Of a stretch of 64,000 nucleotides of DNA, positions 23,125-38,072 are shown one piece after another. The notes beneath the pieces are model-generated. The model was not told the origin of the DNA and made no database searches. It saw nothing but the letters and a program-made list of their open reading frames with translations. The stretch spans positions 1 to 64,000 of the forward strand of contig NZ_BSEN01000006.1 of NCBI RefSeq assembly GCF_027921845.1, read 5' to 3'. The first letter of the stretch is position 1. Each line of letters begins with the position of its first letter. A program made the position numbers and the translations under genes. The stretch comes from Leifsonia poae (GTDB taxonomy: Bacteria > Actinomycetota > Actinomycetes > Actinomycetales > Microbacteriaceae).

Positions 23125-23529
23125 CCGCCGGCGCCTCGAGAGTTATCCACAGCCTCTCCCCAACGTGGGGACAATGCGGTTTCCGCACATGTGGATAACT
23201 TGTGGACAACATCCGGAAACTCGGGGCGTTAATGGGGACGAATCATGAGTGCTTGTGAGTTACACGATTTTCGCGGCCCCGGCGATCGGCCTGATTACAC
23301 CGGGTCTCCCCAGGCCATCAACAAGTGACATGGCTGTGCTTCCCTGTCATTCCGCGGTCTCCACCGAGTTATCCACAGTTTCCACAGCGGTTAACACCAT
23401 TAATCGTTAACTCTTCTTAGTGGGGATGCCGACAACCTTCGCCCGGCGCTCGAATCACAACTTTCCCCGACGGGGGCAGGCGCTAGGATTTGTCACGATC
23501 CATTTCCCGCCGACGACAGAGGTGACTTC
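23125..23529. other. replication origin oriC (dnaA-dnaN intergenic part)
   Basis: This 405-bp region carries perfect DnaA boxes at 23143-23151 (TTATCCACA), 23190-23198 (TGTGGATAA), 23201-23209 (TGTGGACAA) and 23369-23377 (TTATCCACA), plus weaker ones. An AT-rich stretch with two GTTAAC hexamers (about 23388-23421) is the likely unwinding element. Boxes in both orientations, the dnaA/dnaN context and the nearby parS cluster make the call strong. No gene seen. Confidence 0.93.
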
Positions 23530-36718: not shown

Positions 36719-37576
36719 ATGTCCCAGCCCGCTGATGTTCGGGCGAGCACCTGTTACCGGCATCCGGATCGCGTCAGCTACGTTCTCTGCCAGCGGTGTG
36801 GGCGAACGATCTGCCCCGAGTGCCAGACGCCGGCGGCCGTCGGTGTCATCTGCCCGGAGTGCATGGCGCAACAGCGTGCGACGGCGCCGAAGACAAAGCC
36901 CGCCATCCTGACCAGGATGACCGGGCGCGGCGCCCCGGTCATCACGTATACCCTGATCGGCATCTGCGTGCTGGTCTACATCCTGCAGTCGCTGCCGGGC
37001 ATCGGCGGCACGATCACGCAGGCGATCCAGTACGCGGGCGCCTACTCGTACCCGACGGGCACCTTCGGCGGCGTCGCCTTCGAGCCGTGGCGCCTGCTCA
37101 CGACGGTGTTCGCGCACGCGAGCATCCTGCACATCGCGCTCAACATGTACACGCTATGGGTGTTCGGGATGCTCCTCGAACCGCTGCTGGGTCGCGCGCG
37201 GTTCCTCGCGCTCTTCCTGATCAGCGGGTTCGCCGGGTCGGTGGCCGTGCTGCTGATCGCGTCGCCCGTGCAGCCGGTGGTCGGCGCATCCGGCGCGATC
37301 TTCGGGATGCTCGGGGCTTTCCTCGTCATCCAGCGCCGGTTGGGCGGCAACGCGACCCAGCTGTTCATCCTCGTGGGTATCAACCTCGTCATCGGGTTCA
37401 TCCCGTCGTTCGGGATCGCATGGCAGGCGCACGTCGGCGGTCTGATCGCCGGAGTGCTCGTGGGACTGATCTATGTCGAGACCCGCACGCCCGCACGGCG
37501 TCGCCTGCAGATCCCCCTCCTCGTGGTGCTCTGCCTGATCCTCGTGGCGCTCAGCCTCATCCACCTGTTCGCCTGA
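36719..37576 (+). CDS. rhomboid family intramembrane serine protease with N-terminal zinc ribbon
   Basis: A 285-residue protein. Residues 10-50 hold a Cys/His-rich B-box-like ribbon (CYRHPDRVSYVLCQRCGR, CPECQ, CPEC). A rhomboid core of six or seven helices follows: the loop TTVFAHASILHIALNMYTLW, the catalytic Ser in GASGAIFGMLGAF and the catalytic His in AWQAHVGGLIAG. The Ser-His dyad is intact, so an active protease is expected; the substrate is unknown. It lies 23 bases after ppiA. Confidence 0.92.
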   Translation: MSQPADVRASTCYRHPDRVSYVLCQRCGRTICPECQTPAAVGVICPECMAQQRATAPKTKPAILTRMTGRGAPVITYTLIGICVLVYILQSLPGIGGTITQAIQYAGAYSYPTGTFGGVAFEPWRLLTTVFAHASILHIALNMYTLWVFGMLLEPLLGRARFLALFLISGFAGSVAVLLIASPVQPVVGASGAIFGMLGAFLVIQRRLGGNATQLFILVGINLVIGFIPSFGIAWQAHVGGLIAGVLVGLIYVETRTPARRRLQIPLLVVLCLILVALSLIHLFA

Positions 37577-37620: not shown

Positions 37621-37761
37621 CGTGGATAAGTTATCCACAGCCTTATTAACAATGGGGATAATTACACGCGTGTAACTCTCCACAGGCTTATTAACACTGG
37701 GGAGAACCGTGTGAGGCGAGTCCACGGAGTTCTCCTCACTGTGGATGAATGGTGTGGATAA
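37621..37761. promoter_or_regulatory. DnaA-box cluster with direct repeat and palindrome outside oriC
   Basis: In the 253-base rhomboid-crgA gap there are perfect DnaA boxes at 37631-37639 (TTATCCACA) and 37753-37761 (TGTGGATAA), and one-mismatch boxes at 37621-37629, 37653-37661 and 37740-37748. The first two boxes face each other as GTGGATAA-G-TTATCCAC. A 25-bp block at 37634-37658 is repeated at 37679-37703 (23 of 25 identical), with the perfect palindrome TTACACGCGTGTAA (37662-37675) between the copies. Function is inferred only. Confidence 0.65.
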
Positions 37762-37776: not shown

Positions 37777-37809
37777 AAAAAACCGGGACCGGCCGAAGCC
37801 GATCCCGGT
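37777..37809 (-). terminator. rho-independent terminator of crgA
   Basis: A 12-bp stem with one mismatch (ACCGGGACCGGC / GCCGATCCCGGT, loop CGAA) starts 21 bases after the crgA stop and, read on the minus strand, runs into a six-base T-run (37777-37782). Confidence 0.88.
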
Positions 37810-37829: not shown

Positions 37830-38072
37830 TCAGCGCCAGCGGGTGGTCATAAGGAAGCCGATGAAGGCGATGCCGAAGCCGACGAGGATGTTCCAGGCGC
37901 CGAGGGCCGGAATGGGGTACTGGTTCTGGCTGACGTAGAAGACGATGATCCACACCAGCCCCAGCAGCATGAAGCCGAACATCACGGGCTTGAACCACAC
38001 GGGGTTCGGGGCGTCCTCGCCGGACTGCGCGTCGATGCGCTCGGGCTTGGTCTTCGACTTGGTGCGTGCCAT
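37830..38072 (-). CDS. crgA: cell division protein CrgA
   Basis: An 80-residue protein with a charged cytoplasmic N terminus and two membrane helices (PVMFGFMLLGLVWIIVFYVS and WNILVGFGIAFIGFLM), ending TTRWR as in other CrgA proteins. CrgA is an actinobacterial divisome component that contacts FtsZ and penicillin-binding proteins. It is monocistronic: its own terminator follows, and the divergent sortase gene lies upstream. Confidence 0.93.
   Translation of the reverse strand: MARTKSKTKPERIDAQSGEDAPNPVWFKPVMFGFMLLGLVWIIVFYVSQNQYPIPALGAWNILVGFGIAFIGFLMTTRWR

Follow-up and report, generated by a model that had tools for sequence, protein, structure and literature searches.

What is a cluster of DnaA boxes doing ~14 kb from oriC, in the gap between a rhomboid gene and crgA? 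The question arises in Leifsonia poae (GCF_027921845.1), of whose contig NZ_BSEN01000006.1 we analyzed positions 1–64,000 (hereafter, the window), and it bears on the wider and still largely open matter of how DnaA is held back or licensed away from oriC in actinobacteria. We find that the gap holds an element in which two copies of a three-box DnaA module flank a palindrome that is predicted to be an operator of the division regulator ResR/McdR. The anatomy of this element and its conservation among relatives are strongly established. We propose, giving the idea about an even chance, that it is a composite replication-control element, in which a DnaA locus resembling datA or the DnaA-reactivating sequences (DARS) of Escherichia coli is gated by ResR/McdR.

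A duplicated DnaA-box module between converging genes

The rhomboid gene (+ strand) ends at 37576 and crgA (− strand) at 37830. With genes converging on it, a point missed in the original prediction, which had been made from the letters of the window, the gap is no ordinary promoter region. That prediction's count of two perfect and at least three one-mismatch DnaA boxes in 141 bp also agrees with ours, of two perfect and three one-mismatch boxes (37621–37761). With 157 boxes at ≤1 mismatch in the 4.07 Mb genome (79 and 78 on the two strands), ~0.005 rather than five would be expected in a segment of this length. Only 24 boxes genome-wide are perfect, and two or more of these lie within 500 bp of each other only at oriC (three) and in the crgA gap (two). 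The features of the gap are as follows.

37621–37629, − strand: DnaA box TTATCCACG, 1 mismatch, back to back with the box at 37631
37631–37639, + strand: DnaA box TTATCCACA, perfect, first box of module copy A
37643–37651, + strand: degenerate DnaA box TTATTAACA, 2 mismatches, second box of module copy A
37653–37661, − strand: DnaA box TTATCCCCA, 1 mismatch, third box of module copy A, 2-bp overlap with the operator
37660–37677, no strand: predicted ResR/McdR-type operator AATTACACGCGTGTAACT, 11 of the 12 fixed bases of AATnACAnnnnTGTnATT
37676–37684, + strand: degenerate DnaA box CTCTCCACA, 2 mismatches, first box of module copy B, 2-bp overlap with the operator
37688–37696, + strand: degenerate DnaA box TTATTAACA, second box of module copy B
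37698–37706, − strand: degenerate DnaA box TTCTCCCCA, 2 mismatches, third box of module copy B
37740–37748, − strand: DnaA box TCATCCACA, 1 mismatch
37753–37761, − strand: DnaA box TTATCCACA, perfect
37782–37809, − strand: terminator-like stem-loop of crgA from a sequence scan, border of the element

The 25-bp block that had been described as recurring 45 bases further on (23 of 25 positions identical) is indeed repeated, and at its full extent the direct repeat covers 28 nt with 89% identity at a spacing of 45. At the position of its TTATTAACA many relatives carry CTATCCACA or TTATCCACA. Read in this light, TTATTAACA is a degenerate DnaA box, and the repeat is therefore, as far as its letters go, a DnaA-box triplet in two copies. 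The boxes of the module start at 0 and +12 on the + strand and then at +22 on the − strand, with the third facing the first two, and the 18-bp operator site sits between copies A and B with boxes on both sides.

Elsewhere in the genome, where clusters of one-mismatch boxes were compared among the first 100 of the 157 places, further small clusters were seen at C1:254462-254499 (three one-mismatch boxes) and C4:34757-34782 (two one-mismatch boxes).

The palindrome as a predicted ResR/McdR operator

The perfect 14-bp palindrome noted between the repeat copies is present (TTACACGCGTGTAA, 37662–37675), and several lines of evidence suggest that the palindrome region is an operator of the ResR/McdR type. 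McdR/ResR (Rv1830) is a MerR-type regulator of mycobacterial division that binds AATnACAnnnnTGTnATT (PMC9040748; PMC10336103), a motif whose effect is abolished by altering the length of the spacer and not by altering its letters (PMC9040748). The L. poae genome has five copies of this motif at ≤1 mismatch and one of the reversed control; two of the copies, both away from the crgA gap, are perfect. All 12 fixed bases are matched at the promoter of a whiB-family gene (L210, one of our labels for loci), a label based on a Pfam Whib run on the same type of protein from a relative. Within the family Microbacteriaceae, the perfect 14-bp palindrome was found in 68 of 150 genomes and its reversed control in 1 of 150. 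Among 20 palindrome copies away from crgA in relatives, which were chosen by hand and often came as pairs within one genus, 14 belong to whiB-family promoters and have TTGAC upstream.

The genome also encodes a MerR-type ResR ortholog, adjoining an FtsR-like MerR gene and an FHA gene, whose identity with Rv1830 we presume from this neighbourhood. A ResR match at E ≤ 1e-20 is present in 137 of 146 genomes of the class. We therefore expect, on motif and regulator together, that ResR binds the operator in the crgA gap.

Other copies of the motif point to a wider reach of the regulator. Four of the 20 copies away from crgA (L192, L193, L201 and L202) combine the motif with a DnaA box at promoters, and the open reading frame tested in L201 is NrdH; beside the motif in all four are what we take to be NrdR-like boxes. 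From these nrd-type promoter sites, dNTP supply may share the control exerted by ResR and DnaA.

Further sites were observed in passing. The last two of the 20 copies (L203 and L204), near-identical and each with DnaA boxes beside the palindrome, lie 3.5 kb apart in one genome. In L. poae, C6:679954-679971 (L211) is a perfect ResR/McdR motif, immediately preceded by a presumed NrdR-like box, and C12:154395-154412 (L213) is a one-mismatch motif with DnaA-like boxes near flagellar rod domain genes.

Other readings of the palindrome fit less well. A hairpin is not favoured: although the variable n-n positions could pair in 83 of 111 family loci, 81 of these pairs are T-A, the pattern that a fixed site would also give; outside the family, complementarity drops to 6 of 18 loci in one set and 5 of 19 in another, and no Rfam family reached its gathering score. 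Neither the direct repeat of MtrA nor the GACAC motif of WhiB2 fits the architecture.

Conservation across the family, order and class

A strict pattern of the module was found in 7 of 297 genomes of the order, L. poae included, in a sample drawn mostly from other families. Because the spacing varies by 1–2 bp and few genomes of the same family had been sampled, we instead scanned the flanks of crgA for the composite of an operator (≤2 mismatches) and a DnaA box (≤1 mismatch) within 40 bp of each other, in the 400 bp 3′ of crgA. The family set comprised 130 of 146 genomes with a crgA match plus one more, giving 131 loci; other families of the order contributed 48 of 182 genomes with a crgA match, and other orders 64 of 131. 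Among the loci from outside the family, 52 were those with the best CrgA scores and 60 were picked across families before their flanks had been seen.

The composite lies 3′ of crgA in 108 of the 131 family loci, in 24 of 48 loci from other families of the order (17/28 and 7/20) and in 41 of 64 from other orders of the class (17/24 and 24/40). On the 5′ side of crgA, which served as a control, there were two hits in 243 loci (1/131, 1/48 and 0/64), and both of these resemble real elements (L132 and L105, the latter with a further copy 3′ of crgA). The reversed operator gave no composite in any set of loci, nor did shuffled flanks of 131 family, 28 order and 24 other-order loci. A 45-nt consensus of box-box-box-palindrome scored at least 30 of 40 in the same 400 bp in 66 of 130 family loci, against a maximum of 24 on the 5′ side and in the best of five shuffles per locus. 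Nine further family loci have the composite abutting the crgA stop codon (five) or ~0.7–1.0 kb away (four), which raises the total to 117 of 131, and in three more the operator is perfect but no box at ≤1 mismatch accompanies it. The element is thus conserved; a lack of conservation in close relatives, which the original prediction had named as grounds for abandoning the idea, is not what we see.

The arrangement of the parts also recurs. Among the 111 operator-bearing loci of the family, 57 show a + strand box starting 29 bp before the operator. A facing box extends 2 bp into the operator from the left in 47 of the 111 and from the right in 11. The median distance between dnaA and crgA is 13.8 kb, and it is below 20 kb in 41 of 51 family genomes with both genes on one contig. 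In genus g2 the element is absent from all three loci (L025, L036 and L039), and in the one genome of this genus that was measured crgA lies 99 kb from dnaA.

As an observation on box density, the 3′ flank of crgA in L386 has ten boxes (≤1 mismatch) in 400 bp, the densest cluster in our scans.

A mycobacterial counterpart that binds DnaA

The place of the element has a counterpart in mycobacteria, the Rv0010c-Rv0011c site, with which the element shares its position 3′ of crgA near oriC and a cluster of DnaA boxes with a palindrome; the mycobacterial loci described below also have the module. Rv0010c-Rv0011c is known as a DnaA site only. In the window the neighbour genes converge and the module is duplicated; the mycobacterial site, by contrast, is followed by a gene in the direction of crgA and thus comes to lie upstream of Rv0010c. 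Hicks et al. (2020) reported five regions highly enriched for DnaA, with homologous regions bound in M. smegmatis, and at Rv0010c-Rv0011c binding was seen by IDAP-seq, by electrophoretic mobility shift assay and by chromatin immunoprecipitation sequencing in M. smegmatis (PMC7738170). Clinical mutations at this site cluster in a palindrome, and rebuilt variants gave longer cells, as did dnaA mutants (PMC7738170).

We examined the best 80 of 300 CrgA relatives, all of them named mycobacterial loci (78 titled Mycobacterium, one Mycolicibacterium and one Mycobacteriaceae; for the most part closely related to one another, with two taken from a single record and none titled M. tuberculosis). All 80 carry a perfect operator, typically as TTATCCACA-n4-CTATCAACA-n-TGGGGATAAATCACACGCGTGTGATT. 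The palindrome of Hicks et al. lies ~65 bp upstream of the Rv0010c start (PMC7738170), and in our loci an ATG stands 66 bp from the operator. This ATG is the first possible start in at least 12 of the 80, and in most of the others translation could begin sooner, at an in-frame codon 42 or 21 bp away. Ten of the 80 loci carry the GAATC insertion motif of Hicks et al. (PMC7738170) at the border of the operator, where most of the others looked at read AAATC. By extension across species, from loci of its relatives to M. tuberculosis, the palindrome of Hicks et al. would be the ResR/McdR operator.

A possible second site in oriC

The 10-mer GAGTTACACG is also present in oriC at 23257–23266, as had been pointed out; this spot fits the operator motif poorly, with 5 of 12 mismatches at 23258. 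A better candidate lies nearby:

23324–23341, no strand: operator-like site in oriC AGTGACATGGCTGTGCTT, 2 of 12 mismatches, followed after 45 bp by the DnaA box at 23369

The best operator match in 30 oriC gaps of the family had two mismatches in 15, three in 11 and four in 4, against three in 2, four in 11 and five in 17 for shuffled gaps. Of these 30 gaps (L227-L256), 22 have a DnaA box at ≤1 mismatch that follows the best site at a distance of 45 bp, or in one case 46 bp. The consensus of the oriC sites, ACTCACACNNNTGTAGTT, differs from the operator motif, suggesting that a weaker or a different reader is possible; 23324–23341 is a possible second site of the regulator that reads the crgA gap.

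Relation to known DnaA and ResR systems

The core of E. coli DARS1 and DARS2 and the window element both have three boxes, with box I opposite to II and III, and both are intergenic (PMC5742627). In the window the corresponding boxes, compared with the K-12 sequence, are I at 37653 (−), II at 37643 (+, 2 mismatches) and III at 37631 (+). The spacing of II and III is 12 in both, whereas that of I and II is 10 in the window and 14 in DARS; for this difference of 4 bp we do not call the element a DARS. DARS also has IHF and Fis sites, whereas the window element is origin-proximal with a ResR-type operator (PMC5742627). E. coli datA is likewise a cluster of DnaA boxes outside oriC with a site for a second protein, which at datA is IHF, and its box layout is another one (PMC5742627). 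The operator of the whiB2 promoter has the motif AATnACAnnnnTGTnATT in common with that of the window (PMC9040748, PMC10336103), but the window operator overlaps DnaA boxes and no promoter of a converging neighbour.

Clusters of DnaA boxes outside oriC, of a kind for which we know of no ResR operator, exist in Streptomyces coelicolor and Bacillus subtilis. As in the window, the boxes of these clusters lie outside oriC, and there they restrain initiation (PMC5742627, PMC4585315).

That the element belongs to the class of DnaA-controlling elements is well supported; how it would act biochemically, by titration, by DnaA-ATP hydrolysis as at datA or by ADP release from DnaA as at DARS, is suggested by analogy. 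The original prediction of a datA- or DARS-type DnaA element accordingly stands in its main part, with boxes conserved beyond the family, no tie to the promoter of a neighbour and a mycobacterial counterpart that binds DnaA in vitro and in vivo. It had not recognized the palindrome region as a ResR/McdR-type operator that overlaps boxes. Its other suggestion, a relic origin, is not supported.

A proposed mechanism and its alternatives

We propose the following sequence of events. The cluster built on the three-box module would load DnaA ~14 kb from oriC, next to a ResR/McdR operator that overlaps the outermost box and that, through duplication of the module, is flanked by boxes on both sides in the window. 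As at datA or DARS, the DnaA assembled there would be held or switched from one nucleotide state to another. ResR/McdR, once bound to the operator, would block or remodel this assembly and so alter, most likely raise, the DnaA available to oriC; it would also repress whiB2, and hence division. The overlap of operator and box and their preferred phasing suggest contact or exclusion between ResR and DnaA, and overexpression of McdR in M. smegmatis gave a higher ori-proximal copy number (PMC9040748). Gating by ResR, whether as competition or as cooperation with DnaA at the site, and the direction of its effect are what we infer from this arrangement.

Several points weigh against this proposal. 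The window operator itself carries one mismatch to AATnACAnnnnTGTnATT. Eleven family loci have neither the composite nor a perfect operator in the locus, though ResR is nearly universal; in genus g34, which accounts for two of them, a perfect palindrome lies ~2.4 kb 3′ of crgA. The composite was not found in half of the sampled genomes from other families of the order or in 23 of 64 from other orders, and Streptomyces-like loci have DnaA boxes 3′ of crgA with no good operator. A + strand promoter-like match overlaps the module. In the literature, the main texts of PMC9040748 and PMC10336103 name neither DnaA nor Rv0010c, and the text on DIP-seq (DNA immunoprecipitation sequencing) in PMC9040748 names only three of five peaks.

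Foremost among the alternatives, though an unlikely one in our judgment, is that DnaA alone reads the element, with the palindrome serving as two weak boxes of a sink or of a datA- or DARS-type locus that has no second regulator. Hicks et al. found DnaA bound at the mycobacterial site and describe the palindrome there as two DnaA-box-like sequences (PMC7738170), an account that also tells against our own, and some genomes have boxes without a good operator. However, at the fixed positions it is the McdR motif, and not the DnaA box, that the palindrome matches; variation in its spacer and at its 'n' positions stays within what that motif permits, and the palindrome recurs at whiB-family promoters, mostly with no adjoining DnaA box in the contexts inspected.

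We regard it as distinctly improbable that the operator is real and DnaA control is kept, with the reader being another protein of similar specificity, either of MerR type, such as FtsR, or, for M. tuberculosis only, HigA2. HigA2 is described as recognizing ATCAC-N-GTGAT and as binding at Rv0010c in M. tuberculosis, which again counts against ResR/McdR, and the oriC variant ACTCACACNNNTGTAGTT departs from the published McdR motif. Against another reader stand the match to the McdR motif, the sites at whiB-family promoters and the wide occurrence of the ResR ortholog in the class, and the HigA2 half-site is ATCAC whereas most family loci read ATTAC.

Slightly less probable still is transcription control, in which DnaA and ResR would regulate a neighbouring gene or an antisense or non-coding transcript from the gap. 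The promoter-like match mentioned above (37634–37662) agrees at 9 of 12 positions, with 0.1 such matches expected in shuffles, the mycobacterial site lies upstream of a co-directional gene, and deletion of HigA2 is described as altering Rv0010c expression. Yet the 3′ neighbour varies, from a converging rhomboid gene (window and L136) to a thiolase gene (L173) or a bPH-domain gene (L164), and because neighbours differ between orders there is no constant target gene on that side. Expression of Rv0010c and Rv0011c was unchanged in dnaA mutants (PMC7738170), and no Rfam family reached its gathering score in the gap.

A relic or secondary origin, for which the DnaA boxes and operator-like palindrome common to the element and oriC might speak, is highly improbable, as the element is conserved over the class beside an intact dnaA-dnaN oriC whose box layout it does not resemble.

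Implications for replication control in the class

A broader form of the proposed ResR-gated DnaA element, to which we give somewhat less than an even chance, is a checkpoint switch across the class: a ~50-bp site built for ResR/McdR and DnaA together, with a degenerate site at a preferred place in oriC, through which one regulator would set division (via whiB2), nrd promoters in some genera, and the availability of DnaA. No paper in the open-licence literature that we searched joins McdR or Rv1830 with 'DnaA box' or crgA; a candidate table in PMC8613195 gives Rv1830 and Rv0010c as separate rows. Within that literature the spread across the class, the module structure and the reading of the palindrome as a ResR/McdR operator are new, and the DnaA site is already partly known in mycobacteria.

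The element is a conserved locus for which a likely second protein is named and the bases contacted by each protein are predicted. If the checkpoint switch is real, it would account for the appearance of dnaA, of resR/mcdR and of the Rv0010c-Rv0011c palindrome in related tuberculosis phenotypes, the palindrome being the operator. And if the link holds, two separate findings in tuberculosis, the mutations at a DnaA site and ResR/McdR, would join in one pathway.
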